Below are positions 7,872-38,033 of a stretch of 64,000 bases of DNA, piece by piece (position 1 is the stretch's first letter; every line of letters starts with the position of its first letter). The stretch covers positions 62,001 to 126,000 of the forward strand of contig JACTVG010000001.1 in the NCBI GenBank assembly GCA_015660965.1. The letters run 5' to 3'. Both the position numbers and the translations under genes were made by a program. Below the pieces are notes generated by a model, which did not search any database, was not told where the DNA came from, and saw only the letters and a program-made list of their open reading frames with translations. This DNA is from Methanoregulaceae archaeon. GTDB taxonomy: Archaea; Halobacteriota; Methanomicrobia; Methanomicrobiales; Methanospirillaceae.

Positions 7872-8719
7872 ATGGGCGACAACTAATTACCGATGCTCAA
7901 AATACATGGTGTCCTGGCTGTGGTAATTTCACGATACAGCATACTCTGAAAACTATTCTTTCTGAAATGGAAAAAGAAGGAACAAATCTTGACGATGTTG
8001 TCATACTTAGTGGTATAGGTTGTCATGCAAAGATCGCTGATTATTTGAATATAAATAGTTTTTATGCAATTCACGGACGAGCGATTCCTGTTGCAAGTGG
8101 TATCAAATGCGCAAATAAAAATTTAAAAGTCATTTGTTGTGTTGGAGATGGTGATGCATATGCGGAGGGTCTCGATCACCTTATCTTTGCTGCAAAACGT
8201 AATATTGACATTACTGTTATTGTCCATAATAATCGTGTATACGGTCTTACTACCGGTCAGTATACACCAACCTCTCCACTAGGCTTCAAAGGAAAATCGA
8301 CCCCATTGGGTACTTTGGAATATCCGTTAAACCCATTAGAGTTGATGCTTGCCAGTGGAGCCACTTATATTGCACGTGGCTATACACGAAAAATGGATTT
8401 GTTAAAAACCCTCATAAGGGGTGCCATTAATCACAAAGGTTTTGCTTTTATCGATGTGCTTCAGATTTGTGCCACTTTCTTTAACATGACCGATTATTAC
8501 AATGCACAGATCTATGAATTGCCTACTTATGACCGTTCAAATGCATCAATTGCCTGTGAAAAAGTAAAGGAATGGGACTACAATAACAAGGCACCGATCT
8601 CGCTTGGACTCTTTTACCAGCGGACCGCTCCGACATTTGATGAGCAATTTCAACATCAAATGTCAGTTAAAAGTGAACGTTATCCGATCGTTAAAGAATT
8701 CCTTGCACTGCGCCAATAG
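7868..8719 (+). CDS. 2-oxoacid:acceptor oxidoreductase, beta subunit
   Basis: 283-residue thiamine-diphosphate-binding subunit. It has the [4Fe-4S] cysteines of CPGCGNF near the N-terminus, GIGCHAKIADYL, and the TPP motif GDGDAYAEGLDHLIFAAKRN ending in the conserved asparagines of VHNN, then YGLTTGQYTPTSP. No separate ferredoxin-type delta subunit lies nearby, so electrons must pass to an outside ferredoxin. It is coupled to the gamma-alpha gene through an ATGA overlap and the two clearly form one enzyme. In methanogens such enzymes usually work in the reductive direction for anabolism. Confidence 0.9.
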   Translation: MNGRQLITDAQNTWCPGCGNFTIQHTLKTILSEMEKEGTNLDDVVILSGIGCHAKIADYLNINSFYAIHGRAIPVASGIKCANKNLKVICCVGDGDAYAEGLDHLIFAAKRNIDITVIVHNNRVYGLTTGQYTPTSPLGFKGKSTPLGTLEYPLNPLELMLASGATYIARGYTRKMDLLKTLIRGAINHKGFAFIDVLQICATFFNMTDYYNAQIYELPTYDRSNASIACEKVKEWDYNNKAPISLGLFYQRTAPTFDEQFQHQMSVKSERYPIVKEFLALRQ

Positions 8720-8790
8720 GAATAGTTCTCTCTAAAAAAAATGGGTACTCGACAAGAATGTGAAAGGTATATTAAAAAAATTAATTCAGG

Positions 8791-9597
8791 TTGAAATGGC
8801 AACGATTTATGTTTCGATATACAAATAATCGACTCCTTATCATACCTTTTATAATCTATATTCTTTGGGTTCTTGAGACATTCTTACTTGAAGGAAGTCT
8901 TGGTGTCTTTACTCGATACCAACCCCTCCCTCTACTTCTGTATACAATCTTTGCAAATATTATTATGGGGATTGCTGTACCGATAGTTTGTCTTCGATCG
9001 GCTTTCATAAGTGGTGCCATAAACATGTTTCAGATTGGATTTCGATCTTTACGAAGAACAGTACTTGCAGCCATTGTTACTGGACTTATCGGATATGAAT
9101 TACTTGTTAACTTTTCTGCCTTTGCTTTCAACCGGCTTGCGTTATTGAATGCCATTGTCCTATTGATACCTGTTGCAATTGCGAGTGTCATGGTTTGCTT
9201 TACACTACTCGGAACACATTTACAAGCATTTGTTAGAAAAAGGGGCGTAAGTGTATCTATAGTTACTAGTGTGATTATTACAGGGGTCCTTTTTGGTCTG
9301 ACCGGTATTGCACATTCCCCGCCAATCAACCAAACAAATATAATTCTTTTATTGATATTGACCGGTATTGCTTCTGCTGTGTTCTTCTTCTCAGTAAGGG
9401 ATGTCTATGCGTCAACATTGTTTGTTACTTTCGGAATGGCACTTGTTCTCTTTAAACAGACCGATTCTTTCTATTCCAATCAAATCGAGCCTCTAATCTA
9501 CGGAATCTCTTTATTATCAATTGTCTGCCTAATTTTTTGTCACTGGTATTTATCCAAAAATTTTAAAACAATTAAAATACCCATAAAAGCCAAATGA
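8791..9597 (+). CDS. Polytopic membrane protein of unknown function
   Basis: 268 residues with about eight hydrophobic segments (for example around residues 16-32, 48-66, 90-106, 120-142, 158-172, 185-200, 210-222, 238-252) and short charged loops. I do not recognise a family. No metal-binding or protease motif is obvious. The frame begins with TTG (8791, six residues before an internal ATG at 8809); the upstream Shine-Dalgarno is weak for both. It follows the 2-oxoacid oxidoreductase by 71 bases in the same direction but has no evident link. It could be a transporter-like or regulatory membrane protein. Confidence 0.7.
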   Translation: MKWQRFMFRYTNNRLLIIPFIIYILWVLETFLLEGSLGVFTRYQPLPLLLYTIFANIIMGIAVPIVCLRSAFISGAINMFQIGFRSLRRTVLAAIVTGLIGYELLVNFSAFAFNRLALLNAIVLLIPVAIASVMVCFTLLGTHLQAFVRKRGVSVSIVTSVIITGVLFGLTGIAHSPPINQTNIILLLILTGIASAVFFFSVRDVYASTLFVTFGMALVLFKQTDSFYSNQIEPLIYGISLLSIVCLIFCHWYLSKNFKTIKIPIKAK

Positions 9598-9644
9598 CCA
9601 GTTTATATAGTAATTTGGAAGCTGGAACTATTTTTTAATTAAAA

Positions 9645-9992
9645 TTAGGATTTATTTGTGGTTAATCGATTCTGACGGTACTCTTTAATTACAGTATGTC
9701 TCTGTCTCCCGTTAATAACACGGCCGAATCCTCCATATGACACGACGTAGATATGTCGGTGAATTACCGTAGTTAAATCTATTTTTTTTAGTGCGACTAT
9801 TGGCGAAAGCCAAGCAAGTCCCTCGGACTCTCCTATTTGGTTAACAACGTCCGCCATTTGGTTGCTCATGAGTGCACGGAGATCTTCGTCAATGAGAAAA
9901 AATTCTGCACCCGCAATGTCCATCATAAGCCCCTTACCTGCCCTTTTCAAAATTCCGGCATTTGAGTAGGTTTCATCCATTGCTTTGCTCAT
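9645..9992 (-). CDS. Hypothetical protein, 115 residues
   Basis: Unrecognised soluble protein. The sequence is mixed alpha/beta, with an acidic stretch (FFLIDEDLRALMSNQ) and a strand-rich middle (HRHIYVVSYGGFGRV), and a basic tail. Translation from ATG 9992 is preceded by GGTGAT at a short distance. It converges with the membrane protein upstream and faces a gene-poor stretch on its other side. Codon use looks like that of neighbours and there are no stops, so I think it is real, but nothing here shows a function. Confidence 0.55.
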   Translation of the reverse strand: MSKAMDETYSNAGILKRAGKGLMMDIAGAEFFLIDEDLRALMSNQMADVVNQIGESEGLAWLSPIVALKKIDLTTVIHRHIYVVSYGGFGRVINGRQRHTVIKEYRQNRLTTNKS

Positions 9993-10261
9993 GGCATCAC
10001 CACATACAAGATTCTGTGTTACTATCTAAAGCTGGCGTCAGACGTTTTATTGCGGTTTTTTTTCAAAATTTACCGAATTTTATGGGGAATTCAGATCTCT
10101 GTAATAATATATTACAAAACATTCTTACAAAACAATCATTGTGCGATTGTAATTGTCATACTAATCTTTGTACGGGCTACAAAGCTGGGTTACGATACGA
10201 TTAAGTAAATCCAACATCCTCGGTGATATATGCCTGAGATAATAGATGTTCGATTATTGCT
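9993..10261. other. Gene-poor stretch leading into a pseudogene
   Basis: AT-rich sequence with no ORF I trust; an 80-codon frame at 9962-10204 on the plus strand is cysteine-rich and has no Shine-Dalgarno, so it looks spurious. The right-hand end runs into the decayed PKD domain described separately. Confidence 0.5.
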
Positions 10262-10473
10262 AGTCGGCTTGCTAGTACGTTTATTGACAATTCAACAGGT
10301 TCACCCACATGCTGCAACTGGAATTTTGGTGACATCGGTGCCGGAACACGTCAATGTTCCGGAATCCGTCGCACCTGTATATTACAATTGGTAAATCTTC
10401 AGTGACTCTTACTGTTTATAATTCTGGAGGTAACAGCACATTCACGCGCTCGAATTATATTACCGTGGATTGA
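10262..10473 (+). pseudogene. Decayed PKD-domain surface protein fragment
   Basis: Reading one frame gives FIDNSTGSPTCCNWNFGDIGAG, then after one frame change NPSHLY..VTLTVYNSGGN and SNYITVD before a stop at 10471. Together they reproduce the second half of a PKD domain almost in full, including the W-x-F-G-D-I-G-A-G core also found in the large surface protein at 33.8-35.1 kb. One frame shift lies between GAG and the NPSH segment (around 10345-10350). No start codon or upstream domain survives. I read it as the C-terminal PKD of a lost surface protein. Confidence 0.8.
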
Positions 10474-10535
10474 GTAAAACGTTATCTGTAATTTTTTAAA
10501 ATCTAATAACAAATGTTGAATCTAATCGCTTACAC

Positions 10536-10575
10536 TTAAGTCAAAATAATTTTAATTTGTAATTTTAAGTCAAAA
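10536..10575. repeat. Direct repeat TTAAGTCAAAA upstream of the TIG lipoprotein gene
   Basis: The 11-base word TTAAGTCAAAA occurs at 10536-10546 and again at 10565-10575, 29 bases apart, about 60-95 bases before the start of the lipoprotein gene. The spacing, close to three helical turns, would suit a regulator binding one face of the DNA. The region is AT-rich, so chance cannot be excluded. Confidence 0.35.
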
Positions 10576-10631
10576 ATTCATTAACGCAAAATAATTATAC
10601 CGATACAAATACTGTATAATCAGTGAATTAA

Positions 10632-11633
10632 ATGAAGGTACACTTTTTGATTGTTGGAATAATTATCATCGCCGTACTTTGTAGTGGGTGCTCCGAACAA
10701 TCTCAAACAGATACGACGAATCCTGTCTCAACACCTACAATAACTCAACAAAATTATGTTGCCGGAGACATCGTTGCAAAGACATCAACCTCTACTGATA
10801 CCTTATGGTTGATTCTAAACTATGATTCAAAAACTGACAAATACGAACGCGCTCTCGTTTATAAAATGTCAGGAAATACTTGGTATCGAAAGGACAATAA
10901 AACGGAATTAATAGAGAGAAGTGTGGCTGAGAAACTTTATCCTGCAAAAGTATCTCATGTAACCTCAATTTCGAGTATATCAATTATTACTCCAACGATG
11001 ACATCAACCTCCACTAAAACCTCTCCTCCAGGTCCAGCACCTAGTATTTCATCAATTACACCAAACAGTGGTACCACTGGCTATAGTGTCAGTATCACAA
11101 ACCTTGCAGGTTCTAGTTTCCAGACCGGTGCAACAGTTAAACTCGTTGGGACGGATGGTACTAGTGTTAGTGCTTCAAATGTTGTAGTGTCTCAAAACAC
11201 AATCACTTGTTCTTTCAACCTCTACGACATTAAAACAGGAAAATATGATATTGTCATCACTAATCCGGATGGTCAATCGGATATACTGCCACAAGGGTTT
11301 ACAGTTAACGATGCAGGGCCACTTATCAGCACTATTACCCCCTCACAAGGTATGATCGGTGCAAACATCGATCTTACCATTGTTGGTTCCGGTTTTAAAA
11401 ATCCAGCCAAAGTGACATTTACTAAAGGAACTGAAGGATTAGATTGTGCGAATACTGTAACGAATACTGCTACCCAAATCACTTGTGTATTAACCATCCC
11501 GCAAGGGACAACAATAGGAGGGTGGGATATCACAGTGAAAAATATTGAAGATCAACAAAACGGTACCGTTTCAAATAAGTTTACTATTATAAATAACACT
11601 ATTACGAGCCCAACGACTACAGGAACGACCTAA
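10632..11633 (+). CDS. Secreted lipoprotein with two IPT/TIG domains
   Basis: 333-residue envelope protein. A short signal peptide ends in a lipobox (AVLCSGCSEQ, Cys near residue 20), so it is probably lipid-anchored on the outside of the membrane. Residues 40-105 form a small domain with a TWYRKDN motif; a Thr/Ser/Pro-rich linker follows; two IPT/TIG immunoglobulin-like domains occupy about 138-225 and 230-318 (ITPNSGTTGYSVSITNLAG; GFKNPAKVTF). The TIG repeats resemble those in the 722-residue protein at 35.9-38.0 kb. The C-terminus is Thr-rich and likely glycosylated. Role in adhesion or cell envelope is inferred from architecture only. Confidence 0.85.
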   Translation: MKVHFLIVGIIIIAVLCSGCSEQSQTDTTNPVSTPTITQQNYVAGDIVAKTSTSTDTLWLILNYDSKTDKYERALVYKMSGNTWYRKDNKTELIERSVAEKLYPAKVSHVTSISSISIITPTMTSTSTKTSPPGPAPSISSITPNSGTTGYSVSITNLAGSSFQTGATVKLVGTDGTSVSASNVVVSQNTITCSFNLYDIKTGKYDIVITNPDGQSDILPQGFTVNDAGPLISTITPSQGMIGANIDLTIVGSGFKNPAKVTFTKGTEGLDCANTVTNTATQITCVLTIPQGTTIGGWDITVKNIEDQQNGTVSNKFTIINNTITSPTTTGTT

Positions 11634-11863
11634 CCTAAAAAATCCCCCTTTTTCTTTAATATTAAATACCCTGAAATTAGAGAGATTGTAACTCACTCCT
11701 TTTTTAATTATTTTTTATACCTCATACTACCATTACCCCCATAATCTCTCAAAATTAGTAAAATAACCAGATTTAAATAGGTTTTAACAATTAGAAATTT
11801 TTTTATACAAGTGTACTTCACTATCCGAAAACTCTTTATTCCAATATTCAATATAGAAATACA

Positions 11864-12376
11864 ATGCCAAAGAGACTATTAAAAAATAGTTTAGTACGAG
11901 CTGGGATTTCACTGGGTATCTGCTTATTAGCAGGATATATTGGATCAATTTATGCTATCCCGGCAATCCGGTCTTGGGGGTCTTCACTAAATAAACCCGA
12001 TCTCATCCCTCCAAATTCACTCATAATTCCTATTGGAATAATTTTGTATATTCTGTTAGGTCTAGCGCTCTTTTGTATATGGCAGGCAGATCTTTCCAAG
12101 AAAGATACAATGACATGTTTTCAACTTTTTATATTCGGACTTGTTCTGAATGTTCTTTGGGTTTATGTATTCTTCGGACTCATGTCTCCTTTCTTTGGGT
12201 TTATTATTATGGTTATGCTACTTGCAATTCTATGCTCGACGATTTTACAGTCATTGCGAGTCTCAATTGCTGCAACTTTTCTCCTGACCCCCTATCTCAT
12301 TGTATCAATTATCGTAGCATATCTTGACTTCATGATCTATATTATGAACCCAAATCTTCCAGTTTTGGTTATTTAA
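11864..12376 (+). CDS. tspO: TspO/MBR family membrane protein
   Basis: 170-residue protein with five predicted membrane helices and the TspO landmarks: WGSSLNKPDLIPPN after helix 1, LYILLGLALFCIW in helix 2 and LNVLWVYVFFG in helix 3. TspO proteins bind tetrapyrroles and act in stress responses; in methanogens the ligand is unknown, but abundant tetrapyrroles (F430, corrinoids) make them plausible. The internal tryptophans typical of the family are only partly kept. It stands alone, with an AT-rich upstream region. It converges on nothing; a decayed AAA ATPase follows 64 bases on. Confidence 0.85.
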   Translation: MPKRLLKNSLVRAGISLGICLLAGYIGSIYAIPAIRSWGSSLNKPDLIPPNSLIIPIGIILYILLGLALFCIWQADLSKKDTMTCFQLFIFGLVLNVLWVYVFFGLMSPFFGFIIMVMLLAILCSTILQSLRVSIAATFLLTPYLIVSIIVAYLDFMIYIMNPNLPVLVI

Positions 12377-14552: not shown

Positions 14553-15392
14553 TTGCCTACTAACATGTTTACGATGAAGCAGATTGCCCTCTATGGTAAA
14601 GGAGGGATCGGGAAATCGACAACGGCTGCAAATCTCTCTGCTGCGCTTTCGCTCCAGGGTTTTGATGTTCTCCAGATCGGGTGTGATCCGAAACGGGATA
14701 GCACAAGAATGTTAATGCACGGTAGTTTTATTCCGACAGTAATGGATCTGGTTCGCGAACGGGGAGACGGAAAGATAACGCTCGATGAAATAGTATATAC
14801 TGGATTTAATGGCGTGCGATGCGTAGAAGCAGGTGGTCCTGAACCTGGCGTTGGATGTGCCGGACGAGGTATAATAGCTACCTTCCAACTTTTAGAGAAG
14901 TTCGGTGCGCTAACGGGCGATGTAATCTTATATGATGTTTTGGGTGATGTTGTCTGTGGAGGTTTTGCAATGCCGATGCGAGAGGGATATGCTCAGGAGA
15001 TCTATCTTATTACGTCTGGTGAGTTGATGTCACTTTATGCGGCAAATAACATCTGCAAGGCAATAAAACGTCTCTCGCAACGATCAAAGAGCACATGTCG
15101 ACTTGCGGGAGTGATTTGTAATGCAAAAAATATGCCTAGTGAAAAGGAACTGGTTAGTGAATTTTCCCGCCGTATCAATAGCACACTAGTACAGTATATC
15201 CCAAGAGATCGCAAGATACAATTGGCTGAGATCCATAAGCAAACAGTTGTTGAGTATTCGCCTAATTCTACTCAAGCAGGTCTCTATCGAGAACTATCCT
15301 CATATGTCATGACGAACACCAATTTTACGATCCCCACACCCATTGAAATTGATGCTCTCGAAGCCCTCGCCCTTGAATTCATGCAGATTTGA
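14553..15392 (+). CDS. Nitrogenase-like iron protein (NifH/CfbC/BchL family)
   Basis: 279-residue ATP-dependent electron donor. It has the P-loop GKGGIGKST (15-23), C102 in GVGCAGRG and C135 in [12 protein letters not shown], which bridge the shared [4Fe-4S] cluster of the homodimer, and the switch aspartates of GCDPKRDST. All features needed for an active iron protein are present. The frame begins at TTG 14553, with AGGAG 12 bases upstream; ATG at 14565 or 14574 would give the canonical [11 protein letters not shown] start but lies far from it. The next gene overlaps by about 40 bases. It must feed electrons to the two component-1-like proteins that follow. True NifH for nitrogen fixation is unlikely given their sequences. 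Confidence 0.9.
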
Positions 15393-16398
15393 GGGTTGTA
15401 CCCTAACAGGTGCATTATCGGTAACTACCTCAATCAGAGAGGGTATCACTGTTATTCATGGACCTTCGGGATGTGCACATCATAACTTCTCGCTTCTACA
15501 TTCAACAAATCTTGATCATAATCGGATCGCGGTACCACATATAGTCTCGAGTGGACTTCTTGACTCTGAAATTGTATTTGGTGGTGAGGAAGCTCTGGAA
15601 CGTGCAATTGAATCTGCGATTTCTCAGTCTCCAAAATCTGTTTTTGTATTGTCGACATGCATAACTGAAACAATTGGAGATGATGTTATTGCGGTTTGCG
15701 GGAAACACTGGGATGTACCGGTCATACCAATTCCTACTGCCGGATTCCTTGGTGGTTCATTCCAGATGGGTGTGAATAACGCGTTAAAAACAATAGCGGG
15801 TTTAATTGGTGTATACTCAAATAATGGCAGTGTCAATATTATTGGCGAAAAAAACCTCGAATATGAGGTTGAAGAGAATTATACCGAGATAAAACGGTTA
15901 CTTTCACTATTAGATCTTCAGGTTAATGTACGGTTCATTCATAACATTTCAACAACTGACATTGAGAAGATAGGGAGGGCATCCCTCAATATTTTGCGTG
16001 ATGCTGAGTTAGTAAGTGTTGGTAAACAACTTTTCCAACAGTTTGGCACTCCATTCATTGAATCATTCCCAACAGGTTTTTCTGGAACTATCACATTTCT
16101 GAATCAAATTGCTGAGATTTACGGGCTACAAGGTCAGGAAACTATTACCTATGAGGAATCCCTTCATGAGTCTATCCTTGATGATTTTAGAGACATTACC
16201 GGATCTTCTATTGCTGTTGATCACTCGTTCATGATAAGTCCAGATTATGCATTCTTTCATGAGGTTGTCAAAGATCTTCATATAAAAATTAAACCGGATG
16301 GCTGCCTTGTTCCGATTCCAATATCACCGCCTATTGGTACAATGGGAATAAAGCGGATGCTCCACCGCTGGAGGCGAGCTATCCATGCCCAAATGTGA
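15352..16398 (+). CDS. Nitrogenase-like component 1, D-type subunit
   Basis: 348-residue protein of the oxidoreductase/nitrogenase component 1 family. Cysteines C16 (or C11) in SCRFEGC, C41 in HGPSGCAHH and C103 in LSTCITE match the three positions that hold the P-cluster or [4Fe-4S] cluster in NifD, ChlN and CfbD. No cysteine corresponds to the NifD ligand of FeMo-cofactor, and the chain is about 130 residues shorter than NifD, so it does not fix nitrogen. ATG 15352 lies inside the end of the iron-protein gene; a TTG nine bases earlier is possible. The next subunit overlaps by 14 bases. It could be CfbD for coenzyme F430, but the presence of a second, different subunit argues for another substrate. 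Confidence 0.85.
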
Positions 16399-17512
16399 GA
16401 ACCCGCTTTGGCCATGTGCAATGACAGGAGCAACAGCGTGTCTTGCTGGATTTGAAGGAATCACAGTGGTCATTCACGGATCTAGCGGTTGTTATTATTA
16501 TCCGACCACACTCCTCCACGTACCTCTTCATGGCACATTCATTCTAGAGAATGAAGTCATTTTTGGTTCCGAAGAGAGACTTCATGAAGTGATTGAGGAG
16601 CTTCAAGGAAAGGGTAAACGTATCGCTATTGTGACATCATGTGTGCCAGCTATCCTTGGTGAAGACATTCGATCAATGCTCGATTCTAATGATATTATCC
16701 TTGTTGATAGTCCCGGGTTTTCTGGAAATTTTGAGATTGGATACCACACAGCACTTTCGATATTAGAGCCGGCAATTGATTCCGATGCCGTAGGGATTAA
16801 TATTGACGGAGTAAGCCTCTTTGACCCCTTTCATCGCGGAAATGTGCAAGAAGTTGTCAGACTCCTCACCCAAGCTTGTGTTCCGGCTGGTACGGTATTA
16901 TGCTTTGACCATATCGATAAACTTAAACACTGTTCCCCCTTTACATTAGGGGTTGATGGGGATCTTGCAAGCGGTCTTGGTAATTATCTTGGGAATACAT
17001 TGGGATTTCATGCAATCAATGAAACGTTCAATCGGATCGGTCAGGTAATTGAAGATAGTAATGTCGAATCCGTAATAAATGAAAATTCTAGACAGGAGGA
17101 GCGAGTAATACAGGTATGTGACAAGTTCTTGCGCCGGTTTGATCCTCCTTCTGTTGTAATCTTTGCCAGCTTTTCCATCGGAGCATTTGTCGCTAACTTG
17201 TTGGACAAATATCTTGACGCCGAAATTGTTTGCATAGGAAGTCGTACTGACCAGAAATACGATCTCCCCTACCAAGTTCAAAGAGTAGATGGACTTTCCG
17301 ATGTAAAGAGACTAATTGACTATTACACTCCTGACCTTGTTGTGGGGTCATCTTTCGAAAGATCTGTAAAAGGAGGAGCGGCTTTTGTTGGAATAACTCC
17401 ACCACTACGTGGTACGGTCAGACTTGCTTCACGACCACTTGCTGGTATTGAGGGGTCGCTTTTTTTAATTGAAGACGTTCTCAACGCTTGCATGGATCGA
17501 CAATCTGCATAA
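16385..17512 (+). CDS. Nitrogenase-like component 1, K-type subunit
   Basis: 375-residue second component-1 protein, a divergent paralogue of its neighbour. Cluster-type cysteines are C11 in PLWPCAMTGA, C36 in HGSSGCYYYP and C86 in VTSCVPA. Its gene begins inside the end of the D-type gene, so H, D and K-like chains are made together and probably give an alpha-beta component 1 as in BchNB rather than the CfbD homodimer. The middle region (FSGNFEIGYHTAL) matches the family; there is no FeMo-cofactor ligand. The reaction is likely a low-potential two-electron reduction of an unknown, perhaps tetrapyrrole-like, substrate. Confidence 0.82.
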   Translation: MPKCENPLWPCAMTGATACLAGFEGITVVIHGSSGCYYYPTTLLHVPLHGTFILENEVIFGSEERLHEVIEELQGKGKRIAIVTSCVPAILGEDIRSMLDSNDIILVDSPGFSGNFEIGYHTALSILEPAIDSDAVGINIDGVSLFDPFHRGNVQEVVRLLTQACVPAGTVLCFDHIDKLKHCSPFTLGVDGDLASGLGNYLGNTLGFHAINETFNRIGQVIEDSNVESVINENSRQEERVIQVCDKFLRRFDPPSVVIFASFSIGAFVANLLDKYLDAEIVCIGSRTDQKYDLPYQVQRVDGLSDVKRLIDYYTPDLVVGSSFERSVKGGAAFVGITPPLRGTVRLASRPLAGIEGSLFLIEDVLNACMDRQSA

Positions 17513-26262: not shown

Positions 26263-27426
26263 TCATGGCGACATCTGTACGATAAAGTCAACCAGTGTTT
26301 CGAGAACTAGCTTAACATCTGCCTTTCGATTGGCTGAGATAAAAAAGATAGGTATGTTCTTATCAATCTTAAGTCCCTTTCTTATTTCACTGTCACTCAT
26401 CGTATCCGGAAGGTCAGATTTGTTAGCTGCAATTATCATAACCAGATGTTTCTCTATCATTAATTTTAAGTGATAGCGAGCACGTTCCAGTGACTGCGGT
26501 TTTGTTGCATCAATCATAAGCACAGCTCCCATTGCATGGGAGAGAAGCTTGGGAACAAGGGAATCAAACCGCGGCTCGCCTGGTGTTCCATAAAGAGTAA
26601 TATCAAAATCCTTCCAGTTCAGCCACCCAAAGTCCATCGCTACTGTAGTAGGATCGCCAGTTGTGCCTTTTCGGTCAATTGAAAAACCAATATCAGAGGC
26701 ATTTTTGACGAAGGTAGATTTTCCTGTTTGTGATGGGCCAGTGATGACGATTTTGGGAATATAAAGGACAACTTTTCCTTGAGTAGTGATGAATGGTACC
26801 GATCTCGAGGGAATTTTTGACCATGAGGCGTGTAAGAGTGTGAAATAATTGAATCGGGGTAGAGAATGCAACGAGGAGTTTAAGGTTATAATCAGATCGA
26901 ATTTCGAATCTGTGAGAAATGCATCTATTAAATGTCTGCCTTCGAGGTTAAGATTCTCGACAATTAATGTGGTTTTTTTCGATGTCTTAGCGGAATCTAC
27001 GATTGCAAATGCACCGTCTAGTCCTAGATCCTCATAAATCAGATCAAGGTACAGGAATACAACTTCAACTGCATTTTCAGTGCACAGTTTTTTAACCCGG
27101 ATCTCCCAGGCATTTTGTATATCCTTACGGTTACGACTGCTTTTTTGGATTCGGTCACGATCAACGGCATCGATGTATGCAATCTTTTTATTGAAAATCT
27201 CGAGAGTACAACCCCTTTTTGTTGCTGCTTCGTGTTTGAATACATCAAATGTAGTATGAGGAATGATCACAAGGCATGAGAGACCTTTGGAGAGAGCAGA
27301 AATGAGTGTTGAGATCATGAAGATCTGTCCGTCAACTCCTGGCTCCAAGCTGTATAACACACGACTACCTTTCGGAATACCCCCTCCCAACATTTCATCG
27401 ATGCCGTTGATTCCTGTTGAGATCAT
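26263..27426 (-). CDS. Fusion of a KaiC-like domain (broken P-loop) with a Rab/COG2229-type small GTPase
   Basis: 387 residues. Residues 1-215 follow the RecA/KaiC pattern (STGINGIDEMLGGGIPKGS) but the Walker A loop reads EPGVDGQI and lacks the GKT/S, so it should not bind ATP normally. Residues from about 228 are an intact GTPase: GPSQTGKST, switch I GTTGDPTTVAMDFG, switch II YGTPGEPRFD and NKSD. The TTVAMDFG/TPG pattern is that of COG2229 and MglA-like GTPases. The start ATG overlaps the preceding stop (TAATG), so it is translationally coupled to the degenerate KaiC-like gene upstream. A role in signalling or cell polarity is speculative. Confidence 0.82.
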   Translation of the reverse strand: MISTGINGIDEMLGGGIPKGSRVLYSLEPGVDGQIFMISTLISALSKGLSCLVIIPHTTFDVFKHEAATKRGCTLEIFNKKIAYIDAVDRDRIQKSSRNRKDIQNAWEIRVKKLCTENAVEVVFLYLDLIYEDLGLDGAFAIVDSAKTSKKTTLIVENLNLEGRHLIDAFLTDSKFDLIITLNSSLHSLPRFNYFTLLHASWSKIPSRSVPFITTQGKVVLYIPKIVITGPSQTGKSTFVKNASDIGFSIDRKGTTGDPTTVAMDFGWLNWKDFDITLYGTPGEPRFDSLVPKLLSHAMGAVLMIDATKPQSLERARYHLKLMIEKHLVMIIAANKSDLPDTMSDSEIRKGLKIDKNIPIFFISANRKADVKLVLETLVDFIVQMSP

Positions 27427-28130
27427 TATCCGATCACTACCTGTCCTTTCTGCATTAAAAATTTCATCCAATCAGAGGATACGCCCTTCAGACCCTGGAT
27501 TCGCAGGTATTGGTTGTTTTGGTCAATTTTTACCTCAACTACTCCATTCATCAATTGTTTGATTAAAGAGATCGTTTTTTCATCAAATGATTCGTTATTT
27601 AGAAGGTAGAAACAAACGCCGTCGATTTTTTTTACCTTTGAAGTAAGGACATGAAGAAATTGGTATAATACTTCGAGTTTACGATACATGAGAAGAGTGG
27701 AAATAGAGTTCACACAAAAGCGAATTGGTGGAGGAAAAAGACCCGATTCGCCATCCGAGAACTCTCCATCGAAAATCAACTCAACCATCTTGGAGAATTT
27801 GATACCAATACCTGTCAGATCTGTAGGACTTGCGACAAACATAAGGCGGTTGGTGTCAGTAATTCCCGGTATTGAGCTTTTAGTAATTGCATCGATTATT
27901 CCGACATATCTTTTATCTATATTCATCATTTTGAAGGCTTCAACAATTTCGGAAGCACGATCGTTAGTTGAAAGAACAATTGCATATTCACCTGGAAAGG
28001 GTTTGGTCAGAGAAAAGGCAAGCTCTTCAGCAAGACTCATCGATGGTGCTAATATAAGAAAATTAGTTCCCGATTCAAACCCACCGGTAACTTGATCGAT
28101 TTGCGAAATCCCTGACTTGAAATTATACAT
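27426..28130 (-). CDS. KaiC/RecA-like protein with degenerate P-loop
   Basis: 234 residues that follow the KaiC pattern: SGISQIDQVTGGFESGTNFLILAP, then a domain with VELIFDGEFSDGESG and FCVNSISTLLMYRKLEVLYQFLHV, equivalent to the Walker B region. At the Walker A position the sequence is APSMSLAEEL, with no Gly-Lys-Thr, so ATP binding is doubtful. It couples by TAATG to the GTPase fusion, itself with a broken KaiC domain. The pair may form a hetero-oligomer in which GTP, not ATP, controls assembly. It probably begins a two-gene operon. Confidence 0.75.
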   Translation of the reverse strand: MYNFKSGISQIDQVTGGFESGTNFLILAPSMSLAEELAFSLTKPFPGEYAIVLSTNDRASEIVEAFKMMNIDKRYVGIIDAITKSSIPGITDTNRLMFVASPTDLTGIGIKFSKMVELIFDGEFSDGESGLFPPPIRFCVNSISTLLMYRKLEVLYQFLHVLTSKVKKIDGVCFYLLNNESFDEKTISLIKQLMNGVVEVKIDQNNQYLRIQGLKGVSSDWMKFLMQKGQVVIG

Positions 28131-31822: not shown

Positions 31823-33262
31823 ATGGCTCCGGAACCAGCTATGAGATCTGCCCGCTGCGAAAACGCACTGTCTGAGGTAATCGGGTTTATCCTTATCCTT
31901 GTCGTTGTCATGACTGCCTTCTCACTTTACCTCACGTATTCTGTTCCGATGCAGGGGCGTGAGAACGAGATCCTCCACATGAACGATGTCCGAGATCAGT
32001 TCGTTACGTACAAGATTGGTGTTGATGCGCTCTGGACGAACAGTCAGATCGGTACCGCGATGAGCACTTCCTTTGATCTCGGTACCGGTGGAGCATCAAC
32101 GCAGGGGGGTGGTTTCTCAATCATCCCGGTCATGAACCCGGTTCCGTCAAGCGGGACGCTCGCGCTTAACCAACGGCAGGAAGTTCTTACGGTACAATCG
32201 CTGGGACTGATAGGTAATGGGAATGTTATATCAAACCAGATACTTGTGCCTGGATCGCTTTCTTTCAATGCCACGCCGCAGCAGTTCATAGTCAACATCT
32301 CGGATACCACGCCTTCGGATTACAGTTCAGGAAAACGTTCAGTCCTTGTCCAAGGGCAGAATTGGTCCGTGAATGTGACGGTGAATCCGAGAACTACGTA
32401 TTATAATTATTCCACGGGTTGTCAACCCGCGTCGTGCACTTATGCTGATGGCACACGATACACGGGTACTGATATCACGATCGATATTTATAAAAATGGA
32501 GTGATGACCCTCCAGGATTACACGGTATATAACAATATCCAGCCGCAGAGTAATGTGCCCAATTACACTCTGAACCTAGTTGATGATGTGTATGGTCTGA
32601 ACAATTATTTGAAGAGTCAGCAATACCCGATGAATATAACATTTTCCAAATACGGCACACTTATTTCCGGCTACGGTATTGTGACAATTGCTGACGAATA
32701 TAACCAGCAAGCGGTTCAATCTGTCACTCTTGGTGCACTCCAATACTCCGCGAGCAACAATTACTGGATTCCGCAGACATATTATTACCAGAATGGGGGT
32801 ATATTTCTCGAGCAGGATAATAGCACATACAAACTACCTCCCACGATTACATTCTCCTATGACAAAAGCACCGGCATCATTGGGGTTAAAATCATTGAGT
32901 TGCCCTTCCTGCAGACCAATTCCGGGAGCCTAGGCGGTAACAGCCCGGCCCAGGTCAAAACTCAGGTGACCAGTATCCAGAACCTCCCTTACTCCCAGAC
33001 ATACGCCAATACCAAATGGATCAACCTGAGCATTACTTCCAATGACAGCAGCGCGGTAGACGTATGGTACCGGTACTTCAACGATGCCATCAATCTCACT
33101 GCGGGAGTCCCCATTAATACTGCGTATCCGTATTACTATTCGGGGCTTTCAGGATCCCAGGCATTCCTCAGGATCAACGGCACTGGAACATCAGAAAATC
33201 AATATGATGTGCATGTTGAGGGTTTGCTAGCAAACCTGAGTGCAACGGTTCAAGGCGGGTAA
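31823..33262 (+). CDS. Large surface protein with archaeal type IV pilin-like N-terminus
   Basis: 479 residues. The N-terminus has a class III-type signal (SARCENALSEVIG followed by a 20-residue hydrophobic run FILILVVVMTAFSLYL), as in archaeal pilins cut before the hydrophobic stretch. The rest is a Ser/Thr/Asn-rich extracellular domain with many NxS/T sites and no catalytic motif. ATG 31823 or 31841. It shares direction with, and lies two bases before, the 805-residue protein. It could be a pilin-like membrane-anchored adhesin. The first 300 bases are much more G+C rich than adjacent genes. Confidence 0.8.
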   Translation: MAPEPAMRSARCENALSEVIGFILILVVVMTAFSLYLTYSVPMQGRENEILHMNDVRDQFVTYKIGVDALWTNSQIGTAMSTSFDLGTGGASTQGGGFSIIPVMNPVPSSGTLALNQRQEVLTVQSLGLIGNGNVISNQILVPGSLSFNATPQQFIVNISDTTPSDYSSGKRSVLVQGQNWSVNVTVNPRTTYYNYSTGCQPASCTYADGTRYTGTDITIDIYKNGVMTLQDYTVYNNIQPQSNVPNYTLNLVDDVYGLNNYLKSQQYPMNITFSKYGTLISGYGIVTIADEYNQQAVQSVTLGALQYSASNNYWIPQTYYYQNGGIFLEQDNSTYKLPPTITFSYDKSTGIIGVKIIELPFLQTNSGSLGGNSPAQVKTQVTSIQNLPYSQTYANTKWINLSITSNDSSAVDVWYRYFNDAINLTAGVPINTAYPYYYSGLSGSQAFLRINGTGTSENQYDVHVEGLLANLSATVQGG

Positions 33263-33264
33263 GG

Positions 33265-35682
33265 ATGAAATTCTCCGAGAAGGAGAACAATGATGCATCT
33301 TTCGGTATATTCTCCAACGCTTCCTGTGGGCATTGTGCTGTATCAGAGGTCATAGGGTCGCTTCTATTGATCAGTATCGTGGTCGCGGCAGTCTCTATTA
33401 TTGGAGTTGTACTTTGGTCGCAGCCACTCCCTCATAAATTGCCCTCTTTGTCTGCTATCATTACTAACCAGAGCTGCACGGTATTTATGAAACATGATGG
33501 CGGAGACATGCTGGAACAGCAGTCGTTTAAGATCCTTGTGGATGGCACTGATCAGACTGCCAACTTTACGAAGAATGGTAACCCGGTGTGGACAACATGG
33601 GGTATTGGGGATACGCTGGTCTATACTCCTTCCACATGCAGCGCGATGCCGGGCAGAGTTGATATTGTCTTCAATGACGGCACCAGTTCGTTTGTTATTA
33701 TCTCTGCGTTCTTCGGTTCGTTTTCGTCTTCAGCACCAACAGTAACCACGACAACAACTCTAGTCCCGCCACCAGCTGGAAATTTTACCGGAAATCCACT
33801 GACAGGCCCTGCGCCGCTTACGGTTGTATTCACAGATACTTCGACCAACTCTCCAACTTCATGGAACTGGACATTTGGGGATATCGGAGCTGGGAATACA
33901 TCTACGGTACAGAATCCATCTCACACGTATACAGTAGCTGGAACGTATTCGGTGAACCTTACCGTTGCCAATGCGGGAGGCAGCAATACTTTGATCAAAA
34001 CAAATTACATAACGGTGGCACAACCGGTACCAGCACCTGTTGCTAATTTTGCTGGTACGCCAACTGCAGGCCCTGCGCCGCTTACGGTTGTATTCACAGA
34101 TACTTCGACCAACTCTCCAACTTCATGGAGCTGGACATTTGGGGATATCGGAGCTGGGAATACATCTACGGTACAGAATCCATCTCACACGTATACAGTA
34201 GCTGGAACGTATTCGGTGACACTAACAGCATCTAATGCCGGTGGAAGCAACACTACTATCAAGACAGATTATATCAATGTACCGATTCCAGGATGTCTCA
34301 GTGACAACTTCAACGGAAACGGTATTTGGTCTGGGTGGACATTGATTGGAGGCACTTGGAGTGAATCGAGCGGTGTGCTTGCACAGACTTCTTCAGCTAA
34401 TGGAGATCCCAAGAAGGCGATACTCAGCAATGCCGGATTGTTCAACAATCAGGATTATGAAATAACTGTCAAGGTCAGGATTGATTCATGGGTTGATGGG
34501 GATTATGCCCGTGGCGGAGTAAGCCTGTTTAGCAATACAGGTGATGGGAATGGCTACAACCTTGTATTCCATAATGACCACAACACCGTCCAATGGCTTG
34601 ATGACCACGTGGCTTGGGGACCAAGCTACACATTCAGTTGGAACACCGGAACTTGGTACTGGTTCAAGATGAAATCGGAAAGTGGAACGTTATATGGTAA
34701 GGTATGGCAGGACGGAAGTTCGGAGCCTGCTATCTGGTCGTATACTTGGGTACGGAGCGGACGGACAGGATATCCAGCTCTGAACGGGGGTTCATCTAAT
34801 GGGGGGTCTTCTTCAACAGTTTCATTTGATGATGTTACCGTATGCTCCCCCCCCATCCCACCGGTTGCAGATTTCATTGGAACACCCACCTCTGGGTCAC
34901 CTCCGCTTTCGGTATCATTTACGGACGCTTCAACTGGTTCCCCGACTTCATGGAGCTGGACATTTGGGGATATCGGAGCTGGGAACACATCGACATTACA
35001 GAATCCAGTACATAGCTACATAACTAATGGCAATTACAATGTTACACTCCTAGCGACGAACATATTTGGGAGCAATTTTGTCCGTAAGGATAATTATATT
35101 GTCGTGAATTCCTCGTTAGTGTGCTTCAGTGACAACTTCTACAATAATAGCATTGGGCCTGCATGGACATTGATTGGGGGCACGTGGAGTGAATCGGGCG
35201 GTATGGTAGCGCAGACATCTTCTGCCAATGGAGATCCAAGGAAGGCGATAATAAGTAATGCTGGGTTGATCAACAACCAGAATTATATTATCACTGCTAA
35301 GGTCAGGATTGATTCATGGGTTGATGGGGATTATGCCCGTGGCGGAGTGAGCCTGTTCAGCAATACCGGTGATGGGTATGGCTACAACCTATTATTCCAT
35401 AATGACCACAACACCGTCCAATGGCTTGACGACTGGGTAGCTTGGGGACCAAGCTACACATTCAGTTGGAATACCGGAACCTGGTACTGGTTCAAGATAG
35501 AATCGCAAAGTGGAACTCTGTATGGCAAGGTATGGCAGGACGGAAGTTCGGAGCCTGCTACCTGGTCGTATACTTGGGTACGGAGCGGACGGACAGGATA
35601 TCCGGCTCTGAACGGGGGTTCATCTAATGGGGGATCTTCTTCAACAGTTTCGTTTGCGAATGTAACGGTTTGTCCAAACTGA
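33265..35682 (+). CDS. Pilin-anchored multi-domain surface protein (3 PKD, 2 lectin-like domains)
   Basis: 805 residues. A pilin-type N-terminus (AVSEVIGSLLLISIVVAAVS), a domain of about 110 residues with HDGGDMLEQQSFKILVDGT, a Thr-rich linker, PKD1 (about 175-250) and PKD2 (260-340), a concanavalin-like domain (345-530), PKD3 (535-615) and a second concanavalin-like domain (615-805). The two lectin-like domains share long stretches (VRIDSWVDGDYARGGVSLF; ALNGGSSNGGSSSTVSF). It is surely secreted and cell-bound, and probably binds glycans or neighbouring cells. Its first domain is shared with the 722-residue protein two genes on. Confidence 0.88.
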   Translation: MKFSEKENNDASFGIFSNASCGHCAVSEVIGSLLLISIVVAAVSIIGVVLWSQPLPHKLPSLSAIITNQSCTVFMKHDGGDMLEQQSFKILVDGTDQTANFTKNGNPVWTTWGIGDTLVYTPSTCSAMPGRVDIVFNDGTSSFVIISAFFGSFSSSAPTVTTTTTLVPPPAGNFTGNPLTGPAPLTVVFTDTSTNSPTSWNWTFGDIGAGNTSTVQNPSHTYTVAGTYSVNLTVANAGGSNTLIKTNYITVAQPVPAPVANFAGTPTAGPAPLTVVFTDTSTNSPTSWSWTFGDIGAGNTSTVQNPSHTYTVAGTYSVTLTASNAGGSNTTIKTDYINVPIPGCLSDNFNGNGIWSGWTLIGGTWSESSGVLAQTSSANGDPKKAILSNAGLFNNQDYEITVKVRIDSWVDGDYARGGVSLFSNTGDGNGYNLVFHNDHNTVQWLDDHVAWGPSYTFSWNTGTWYWFKMKSESGTLYGKVWQDGSSEPAIWSYTWVRSGRTGYPALNGGSSNGGSSSTVSFDDVTVCSPPIPPVADFIGTPTSGSPPLSVSFTDASTGSPTSWSWTFGDIGAGNTSTLQNPVHSYITNGNYNVTLLATNIFGSNFVRKDNYIVVNSSLVCFSDNFYNNSIGPAWTLIGGTWSESGGMVAQTSSANGDPRKAIISNAGLINNQNYIITAKVRIDSWVDGDYARGGVSLFSNTGDGYGYNLLFHNDHNTVQWLDDWVAWGPSYTFSWNTGTWYWFKIESQSGTLYGKVWQDGSSEPATWSYTWVRSGRTGYPALNGGSSNGGSSSTVSFANVTVCPN
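33808..34220 (+). repeat. Near-identical tandem PKD repeats at DNA level
   Basis: The stretch 33808-33948 and its copy 34070-34210 differ at only a few positions over about 140 bases (for example the long shared run from CCTGCGCCGCTTACGG through GGGGATATCGGAGCTGG). Identity at synonymous sites points to recent duplication or gene conversion within the gene. Confidence 0.85.
34300..35680 (+). repeat. Duplicated PKD-plus-lectin module, second copy degenerate
   Basis: The segment 34310-34840 (lectin-like domain 1) and 35120-35665 (domain 2) are highly similar at DNA level, with long identical stretches (for example around 34470-34540 and 35300-35370, and the last 90 bases of each). The part between is the third PKD. 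A module of about 810 bases was duplicated. Confidence 0.8.
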
Positions 35683-35762
35683 TGTAAAAAATGTTGGTCA
35701 GGATCACATTAATCTCACCAAATTTTTTCCAATCGAAACTTAGATCTCACTGAGGGTTTGAG

Positions 35763-35795
35763 TTGTGCACAAAACGTTTTTTTTTTTTACTTTTT
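35763..35795 (+). terminator. Terminator after the 805-residue surface protein
   Basis: Palindrome TTGTGCACAA (35763-35772) followed by a run of 12 T (35777-35788) and a second T5, about 80-110 bases past the stop codon. A long T tract is the usual archaeal termination signal; the palindrome may be incidental. Confidence 0.6.
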
Positions 35796-35799
35796 AATT

Positions 35800-35827
35800 A
35801 GGGTTGACACCCTCAAAGGATATATGC
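35800..35827 (+). promoter_or_regulatory. Palindrome plus TATA box ahead of the TIG surface protein
   Basis: AGGGT-TGAC-ACCCT (35800-35813) is a perfect inverted repeat, directly followed by a TATA-like GGATATATGC at 35818-35827, some 40 bases before the start codon. The palindrome is at the place of an archaeal activator site or BRE-adjacent operator. Which regulator would bind is unknown. Confidence 0.4.
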
Positions 35828-35864
35828 ATGAACGCAATTAAATCTGGATAAAAGGTTTTTAGGC

Positions 35865-38033
35865 ATGATACGAACCAAGCGCCATAAGATTTTTTATGCC
35901 AAAAAAGAAAGCGCAGTTTCAGAAGTGATCGGTAGTGTCATGCTTATCACTATTGTCGTTATCGCAGTTTCAATTGTAGGAGTTGTGCTCTGGTCTCAGC
36001 CGCCCTCTGCAAAGATCCCAGCACTGAGCGCGGGAATCGTAAGCCAGAGCTGTAATGTGATAGTCTCCCATAATGGCGGGGACATGCTAGAACAACAGGC
36101 GTTTAAGATCCTCGTAGATGGCACTGATGAGACTGCCAATTTTACGAAAAACGGTAACCCGGTATGGACTTCATGGGGTATCGGGGACACTCTTACCTAT
36201 ACCTCAACTCCCTGCCCTCCCATACCGCAAAACGTGCAGATTATCTATACAGGAGGTAATGGTGCACTCGTGTTATCATCGGGATATTTCGGCACTCAAC
36301 TCTCCGGAAATGCCACAACAACCCCAACACCGACACCGACACCAACTCCCGCACCCGCACCTACGGTCTCCGGCATCACTCCCTCAAGTGCCATATCAGG
36401 CACGATAGTCAGCATCACCAACCTTGCCGGGACCAACTTTGTTAACGGGGCGACCGTGAACCTCACAAGGGCCGGCTACTCAGATATTTCGGGATCCGGT
36501 GTTGGTTTTGTATCCTCAACCCAGCTTACCTGCACTTTCAACCTTGCAGGCGCAGCACCCGGTCAGTGGAATGTTGTTGTAACAAATCCCGATTTCCAGT
36601 CAGGAACTGGTAGTAACCTGTTTACCGTGTCACCTACACTTGCCCCCACTGTCAGTACGATCACGCCCAATACCGGCAATCGTGGCTGGCCGGTGACTAT
36701 CACGAATCTTGCCGGTAACAACTTTGTGTCCGGTGCAATCGTGAAACTGGTGAACAACACTGCAGGTCCCGATGTAGCGGCATACAATGTATTCGTTGTG
36801 AGTCCCACAATGATTACCTGTAACTTTAACCTGCTGGGTGTTAACCAGGGAATCTGGAATGTGACCGTTCAAAACCCCTCATCAGACCCAGGTACGTTGA
36901 AAAATGGATTTACTGTAAACAGTCTTGCTCCAACAATCACGGGGAACTCCGTGCCACCAACAGGAAACCCGGGTCAGCTGGTAACGATAACGAACCTGCC
37001 GGGCACCAACTATCAGCCCGGTGCATTGGTCGATTATTACCAGGGTGGTACAAGAATTAACCTGACCAATGTCAATGTAGTATCTACCACCCAGATGTCT
37101 GGTACATTACAGATACCTGCCAATGCTCCAACCGGTGCATACAATATCATGGTTACGAATACTGACGGGAAATCTGGAACTCGCACATCCGCCTTTACGG
37201 TCCCGATGGTCACGGGTATCACGCCAAACACCTATGTAAGCGGCTGGACAGTGAGTATCACGAATCTGGCGGGCAACAAGTTCAAAGATGGTGCCACGGT
37301 CAAACTTGTTAATGCGTCCGCGGGTCCGGATATTACTGCAACCAATGTTGTTGTTGTGAGTGCAAACCAGATTACCTGTACCTTCGATCTGACCGGTGCA
37401 CCAGCCGCACGACGGAATGTCACCGTTACTAACCCCGACGGTGAGACGGGTACCCTTTCCAACGGGTTTACGATCACCAGCAATGCACCGACCCTTACTG
37501 TAAGGGCGCCAACTAACAGCAACCGGGGATGGCCGGTGGGCGTCACCCTTACCGGTACCGGGTTCCAGCCATCACCGGCAGTCAGGTTAACCCGGTCGGG
37601 ATATTCGGATGTTTATGCATATGGTGTGACAGCAGGCTCTCCGACTCAAATAACCTGTACATTCGATCTCAATGGGGTAACCTCCGGTGCATGGAATATC
37701 TTAGTAACCAATGTGGATGGGCAGTCGTCAGGCACCATGACATTCACGGTCAATGCACCGACACCAACGTTCACCAGCAATACACCCGCCACTGGTGTCC
37801 ATGGCACCACTGTGCCCATTACCATTGTTGGTACCGGATTCCAGCCCGGTGCTACCGTAACATATACCCGGGCTCCAACGACGATATCCTTCACTGTCGT
37901 CAGTGTTACAGCCACCCAGATCACCGGTAATCTGGTTATACCTCCCGGAGCGACACTCGGTCTGTATGGGGTCACAATAACAAATACGGATGGCACAACT
38001 GTAACAAGTGCAAACAGATTCACCGTGACATGA
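35865..38033 (+). CDS. Pilin-anchored surface protein with six IPT/TIG domains
   Basis: 722 residues. The N-terminal pilin-type segment (AVSEVIGSVMLITIVVIAVS) and the following 110-residue domain (NGGDMLEQQAFKILVDGTD) are close to those of the 805-residue protein. A TPTPTP linker leads to six IPT/TIG domains in tandem of about 85-90 residues each, with the pattern GITP..G..G..VSITNLAG..F..GA.V.L and a C-terminal FTVT. The repeats resemble the TIG pair of the lipoprotein at 10.6-11.6 kb. It is a large extracellular rod, likely a cell-surface adhesin. The gene has its own promoter and a terminator before it. Confidence 0.9.
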   Translation: MIRTKRHKIFYAKKESAVSEVIGSVMLITIVVIAVSIVGVVLWSQPPSAKIPALSAGIVSQSCNVIVSHNGGDMLEQQAFKILVDGTDETANFTKNGNPVWTSWGIGDTLTYTSTPCPPIPQNVQIIYTGGNGALVLSSGYFGTQLSGNATTTPTPTPTPTPAPAPTVSGITPSSAISGTIVSITNLAGTNFVNGATVNLTRAGYSDISGSGVGFVSSTQLTCTFNLAGAAPGQWNVVVTNPDFQSGTGSNLFTVSPTLAPTVSTITPNTGNRGWPVTITNLAGNNFVSGAIVKLVNNTAGPDVAAYNVFVVSPTMITCNFNLLGVNQGIWNVTVQNPSSDPGTLKNGFTVNSLAPTITGNSVPPTGNPGQLVTITNLPGTNYQPGALVDYYQGGTRINLTNVNVVSTTQMSGTLQIPANAPTGAYNIMVTNTDGKSGTRTSAFTVPMVTGITPNTYVSGWTVSITNLAGNKFKDGATVKLVNASAGPDITATNVVVVSANQITCTFDLTGAPAARRNVTVTNPDGETGTLSNGFTITSNAPTLTVRAPTNSNRGWPVGVTLTGTGFQPSPAVRLTRSGYSDVYAYGVTAGSPTQITCTFDLNGVTSGAWNILVTNVDGQSSGTMTFTVNAPTPTFTSNTPATGVHGTTVPITIVGTGFQPGATVTYTRAPTTISFTVVSVTATQITGNLVIPPGATLGLYGVTITNTDGTTVTSANRFTVT

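Follow-up and report, generated by a model that had tools for sequence, protein, structure and literature searches.

The two overlapping genes described here are probably the form that an archaeal G-protein module of three parts takes in Methanomicrobiales. Its parts would be a KaiC-fold partner, an MglA-type GTPase with a KaiC-like pseudo-ATPase fused to it, and a Roadblock/MglB-type regulator. The genes are found in a 64,000 nt stretch of DNA, here termed the window, from Methanoregulaceae archaeon GCA_015660965.1 (contig JACTVG010000001.1, positions 62,001 to 126,000), which is part of contig C4 of genome G000, referred to as the own genome. The presence of the same pair together with a switch-regulating third protein across archaea suggests a little-known archaeal signalling module. 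The features of the pair are given in Table 1.

Table 1. Features of the partner and fusion genes, in window coordinates.
Feature	Position	Strand	Basis
Partner protein, 234 aa, KaiC fold, DUF7504, Walker A lost	27426..28130	-	Pfam and predicted structure
Fusion protein, 387 aa, KaiC-like domain and MglA/Ras-type GTPase	26263..27426	-	Pfam and predicted structure
KaiC-like (inactive) domain of fusion, residues 1–217	26776..27426	-	Pfam and fold match
GTPase domain of fusion, residues 218–387	26266..26775	-	Pfam and sequence match to solved structures
Degenerate P-loop of fusion, EPGVDGQIF, residues 28–36	27319..27345	-	Motif reading
Degenerate P-loop of partner, APSMSLAE, residues 28–35	28026..28049	-	Motif reading
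GTPase G1, GPSQTGKS	26716..26739	-	Motif reading; G, K and S/T kept in 66/66
GTPase G3, GTPGE (without Asp, Gln replaced by Glu)	26575..26589	-	Motif reading
GTPase G4, NKSD	26413..26424	-	Motif reading
TAATG, overlap of partner stop and fusion start	27424..27428	-	Sequence reading

The partner gene comes first and the fusion gene second. The junction reads GGATAATGATC, where the stop and start codons have one base in common, as the initial annotation had stated. Comparison with relatives shows that the ATG start of the fusion is conserved. A longer fusion beginning at the TTG at 27471 is unsupported because the reading upstream of the ATG varies among these relatives.

The N-terminal part of the fusion gives a Pfam KaiC (PF06745) match at residues 2–106 with 31.0 bits (cut-off 26.6). 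The predicted model has a pLDDT of 84.9 and a pTM of 0.71, with pLDDT below 50 at residues 251–261 (switch I), and its residues 1–223 match a KaiC structure with a VIA Z of 22.7 (rmsd 2.6, 211 aligned). KaiC proteins display xPGTGKTxF at the P-loop. The Walker A motif GxxxxGK[ST] is absent from the fusion, and EPGVDGQIF is situated at the P-loop position. Motif counts are from 66 fusion proteins among the matches listed, i.e. 72 minus six near-copies (L014, L026, L056, L060, L066, and L077). A Lys at the P-loop is found in one of these, L093 from Aenigmarchaeota (SPLVDKSSF). The Pro and Phe at the two ends of the motif are kept in 63 and 65 of the 66, respectively, thus the fusion P-loop was remodelled and not randomised. 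The GKS in IPxGKSLIY of the ANME rows was rejected as a functional P-loop; it sits before beta-1, off the P-loop position. Five loci (L076, L078, L087, L089, and L090) have a further KaiC-family protein behind the fusion, and this one has GKS.

The partner is a member of DUF7504 (PF24336) by score, with 79.6 bits against a curated Pfam cut-off of 27; the family is without known function. Its KaiC/RecA fold is shown by fold only, not by a PF06745 score. The predicted model (pLDDT 90.0) matches PH0284 with a VIA Z of 23.7 (rmsd 2.3, 211 aligned). Fold matches and structure prediction thus agree with the earlier statement that the KaiC fold is retained in both proteins. The Walker A motif is also absent from the partner, with APSMSLAE at the P-loop position, and the reported lack of Gly-Lys-Thr/Ser in both domains is correct. 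A profile comparison of the partner with the KaiC domain of the fusion aligned 49 columns at 29.7% probability, and this is too weak to support a recent duplication as the origin of the two domains. DUF7504 paralogues found elsewhere in the own genome have no related GTPase beside them among the neighbours read.

The partner P-loop differs between lineages. It is an intact GKS in Archaeoglobaceae (L072, L075), and among the matches listed 22 loci show GK followed by Glu or Asp; these belong to ANME-2, Methanosarcinales, Methanoperedens, one Methanobacteriaceae MAG, and Parvarchaeota/Nanoarchaeota. In Methanomicrobiales the Lys is absent in 32/32 rows, a count that leaves out L014, which a contig end truncates. 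These lineage states would be most simply read as loss of Ser/Thr first and of Lys later. It had been proposed that ATP hydrolysis was given up in favor of a GTP switch. For the window this is supported in part, in that the Lys is lost in both domains and a GTP switch is in place, but the loss is not one event, because the fused domain is dead almost everywhere while the partner may have GKS, GK-acid, or no Lys at all. The partner states form a natural series in which the ATP site goes stepwise from intact to absent.

The C-terminal part of the fusion gives a Pfam Ras match at residues 225–382 with 44.1 bits (cut-off 21.6), and among solved structures Rab and Arf proteins match it best by sequence alone. 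The initial annotation described the G1–G4 motifs as complete. G1 and G4 are indeed present, but G3 is GTPGE instead of DxxG, lacking the Asp and having Glu where the catalytic Gln would be, and the description is therefore not exact. The switch-I region reads TTVAMDFG. Among the 66 listed fusion proteins, G1 and the first and last G of GTPG are found in all. The residue after GTPG is Q in 59, E in 3, K in 3, and Y in 1; with Gln replaced in 7/66, GTP hydrolysis may be weak in these. The G4 residues N, K, and D are present in 65, 64, and 60 of the 66, and erosion of G4 in a few Methanomicrobiales (L025, L027, L028) suggests that these may be gradually losing GTP specificity. A tree of 38 fused and 16 stand-alone GTPase domains, all from loci of this analysis, puts the fused domains in one group; L102, whose open reading frame begins at the edge of its available sequence, is the only stand-alone domain inside the group.

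The assignment as MglA-like agrees with the GTPG at G3, which is of the type of MglA groups 2–5. The GTPGQ without Asp common to these groups in the available text of PMC4316618 is found in the fusions with Q in 59/66 listed proteins and Glu in the window, and the 387 aa fusion falls outside the single-domain size of 150–240 aa; the census set aside proteins longer than 240 aa. The same text places MglA group 4 almost entirely in methanogenic Euryarchaeota, records no conserved neighbours for the archaeal mglA genes of this group, and reports 404 of 488 MglA sequences as coupled to MglB (PMC4316618). A stand-alone GTPGQ-type GTPase is present on contig C5 of the own genome (L171, 5549–6064), directly after EF-2 in an S12-S7-EF2 cluster (ribosomal names by eye).

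A full-length fusion is found in 27 of 61 related genomes from three families of the window's order, and the partner is directly upstream in 27/27 (L014 is cut by a contig end), which upholds the earlier view of two coupled KaiC-like genes. The fusion is present in six of eight genomes of the window's genus, the own genome included. It is absent from G003 (96% complete) and G007 (76%), and is therefore dispensable. By hand count, with the match required to begin before model position 200, 69 of the phylum's 392 genomes carry the fusion; 36 of these belong to the window's order and 33 do not.

A search for the fusion in other archaea had been recommended and it was successful, with full-length fusions (L056–L100) obtained from the best 80 of 574 loci. 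Carriers among these 80 are Methanoregula, Methanolinea, Methanocalculus, Methanoperedens, ANME-2, Methanosarcinaceae, Alkanophaga, Archaeoglobaceae, Methanobacteriaceae MAGs, Altiarchaeota, Micrarchaeota, Aenigmarchaeota, Parvarchaeota, and Nanoarchaeota, where single lineage names may suffer from MAG binning errors. One carrier, Methanocalculus chunghsingensis (L059), is in cultivation. Methanomicrobiales form one long-branched side of the fusion tree (SH-aLRT 100). There are at least 72 full-length fusion proteins across archaea, and with 27 full-length copies in 61 genomes, chance or a sequencing or assembly artefact, named earlier as a possible refutation, is excluded. When viral contigs were searched with the fusion, no relative emerged, which argues against a phage origin. 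A defence system was likewise rejected, the window proteins giving no PADLOC match at 1e-3; the L072 partner shows one weak match (mad8, 7e-4).

Outside the order, a partner-like open reading frame is directly upstream of the fusion in 28 of 39 loci among the matches listed, a number that includes the weak L067 (E = 0.0013); L080 is cut by a contig end. A KaiC-family protein is found elsewhere nearby on the same strand in L076, L078, L087, L088, L089, L090, and L095, and on the opposite strand only in L084, L092, and L093. None is present within the stretch viewed around the L086 fusion.

Roadblock/LC7 proteins are the usual partner of MglA. In 36 of the 39 listed loci outside Methanomicrobiales, a Roadblock gene adjoins the fusion on the same strand at distances of −39 to +87 bp, and the approximately 120 aa protein is Robl_LC7 (PF03259) in 5/5 tested (E-values 3e-14 to 3e-21). 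The three exceptions are L067, with the Roadblock gene upstream of the weak partner-like open reading frame, L086, with two such genes within 4 kb, and L087, where the contig ends. In genome G077 a single 546 aa open reading frame consists of KaiC, GTPase, and Robl_LC7. In Archaeoglobaceae (L072, L075, L177) a V4R-domain protein, Pfam-tested in L072, follows the Roadblock gene.

No Roadblock gene is found in the window's operon, nor near the fusion in the 23 Methanomicrobiales loci (L039–L060 plus L082, with one genome represented twice, L042/L056). In terms of gene order, the Roadblock gene has apparently left the operon in the window's order. The own genome carries Roadblock genes at three places, none at the operon. 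One lies just past the window on C4 (L169, 2367–3385), with response regulators behind it, the first of which carries a MetOD2 output domain. At C4:157000–167000 (L170), a pair of Roadblock-type genes lies ahead of a PilB3-like ATPase and a T2SSF protein, beside a MinD/ParA-type ATPase. Genome G016 (96% complete) contains the fusion and gives no Roadblock match anywhere in the genome, thus Roadblock is not essential there.

A mechanism can be proposed for the module. The two KaiC folds may form a hetero-oligomeric scaffold, as a ring or as dimers, as KaiC/RecA folds do, and the conserved coupling of partner and fusion fits such a hetero-oligomer. The role in polarity put forward in the initial annotation is conjectural. 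At least one of the two folds would be unable to bind ATP, and the attached GTPase, instead of ATP hydrolysis, would switch the state of the hetero-oligomer, its GTP-bound and GDP-bound forms binding different targets. In the ancestral form a Roadblock dimer may have served as GAP or co-regulator of the GTPase. With both ATP sites and the local Roadblock control gone, the window's lineage would be left with a GTP-only device, whose GTPase (Gln to Glu at G3) could be slow, use another GAP, or act mainly as a GTP-binding switch.

Neighbouring genes hint at possible outputs: in some lineages they include V4R and sensor proteins, gas vesicles, and pili, in others translation genes. At 31823–38033 (+) of the window there are three large proteins with type IV pilin-like N-termini (SEVIGF..., SEVIGS...) and, by eye, PKD- or IPT-like repeats. 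Of the other readings, the most probable is that the same module specifically switches type IV pili, archaella, or other surface/buoyancy structures, by analogy with MglA/MglB on Myxococcus pili, but it appears unlikely. In its favor, pilin-like genes (by eye) are just upstream in the Methanobacteriaceae MAGs L076 and L078 and in L096–L100, the L095 module (7185–12035) is inside a gas-vesicle cluster with GvpA-type (PF00741), GvpF/L twice, and GvpK, two Roadblock genes of the own genome are beside the PilB3-like ATPase and T2SSF protein, and the pilin-like genes of the window are 4–10 kb from the operon. Archaeal type IV pilus loci often include Roadblock proteins, and KaiC ATPases associate with these pili, in the available text of PMC4858521. 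However, the constant neighbours in the 23 Methanomicrobiales loci are Dph5-like (21 loci), DUF357 (21), and a membrane protein family (20), not pili, and the neighbours listed for ANME-2 and Methanosarcinales loci are mostly housekeeping genes. The suggested look for chemotaxis, archaella, and pili thus found pilin-like genes in some loci, but a pilin-like cluster is near the operon in only 3/23 Methanomicrobiales loci.

A further alternative, which is improbable, is that the GTPase-KaiC complex is a factor linked to translation, acting on ribosomes or EF-2. The Dph5-type methylase follows the operon in the 21 loci noted above (the window copy gives TP_methylase, 4.7e-18), CRS1_YhbY, S19e, TruD, or RNase HII adjoin the module in ANME-2, Methanoperedens, and relatives, and the stand-alone GTPase relative of the own genome follows the EF-2 gene. 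Housekeeping neighbours are however frequent by chance and vary between lineages, and the Roadblock, V4R, gas-vesicle, and sensor neighbours do not fit. A KaiC-type ATPase/autokinase, or even a clock, in which the P-loop is a functional variant, is slightly less probable still. The KaiC fold of both proteins and the intact or GK-acid P-loop of partners in other lineages would agree with this, but among the matches listed the absence of the Lys in every Methanomicrobiales partner row and in 65/66 fusion proteins argues, at the level of motifs, that the window P-loops are not functional variants. A decaying remnant without function is hardly credible: the P-loops are lost, G4 is eroding in some species, and two same-genus genomes are without the fusion, but G1 is intact in all 66 listed proteins and dN/dS is 0.02–0.24 for all genes and segments in six pairs of relatives. 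These pairs are other relatives, used because dS against the window's nearest relatives is mostly saturated; by this measure the pair is shown to be under purifying selection.

The three-part module has likenesses to several known systems. The Elongator Elp4-6 ring is likewise hetero-oligomeric, and its RecA-like folds lack canonical Walker motifs. Unlike the window pair it has no GTPase; the PAXNEB similarity of the fusion is weak (Pfam E = 0.17). Elp456 is absent among the fold matches listed for the partner and fusion models, an absence that carries no weight against a likeness. With MglA/MglB of Myxococcus and MglA groups 2–5, the module shares GTPG at G3 and, outside Methanomicrobiales, a Roadblock gene beside the GTPase, but here a KaiC-like domain and the GTPase make up one protein, which is coupled to another protein of KaiC fold, and the window operon is without Roadblock. 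Actinobacterial conservons (CvnA-D) also combine an NTP-using signalling protein, Roadblock, and a GTPGQ-type GTPase in one operon, in the portions of PMC13343842 and PMC4316618 available. In the archaeal operon a KaiC-fold pair replaces the histidine kinase and the GTPase is fused; no counterpart of the histidine kinase CvnA or of CvnC was recognised in the operon and its neighbours. Inactivated KaiC (iKaiC) domains are a recognised class and KaiC-family signalling in archaea has been proposed, but the available text of PMC5847659 gives no GTPase or Roadblock link to KaiC.

The initial annotation knew of no described system with this layout. No description of a KaiC-GTPase fusion or a KaiC-Roadblock operon was found in the open literature searched, as far as its accessible text goes. 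The layout itself belongs to a larger module with Roadblock/LC7. Of its components, iKaiC, MglA/MglB, and conservons are each known and their combination is apparently new, although an earlier description is possible. As a tentative reading, archaea may have their own G-protein signalling module, an "archaeal conservon": an attached MglA-type GTPase under Roadblock control would have replaced the ATP switch of a KaiC-family hetero-oligomer, and the module would be sufficiently ancient to be found in Euryarchaeota, Altiarchaeota, and DPANN, with a stripped form in Methanomicrobiales working on GTP alone. KaiC-like proteins have been proposed as main archaeal signalling hubs; the module physically joins such proteins with an MglA-type GTPase and a regulator in a defined, testable unit. 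Elsewhere in the window, positions 14553–17512 (+) carry a NifH-like gene and two NifD/K-like genes, by eye of the cfbC/cfbD type of methanogens.
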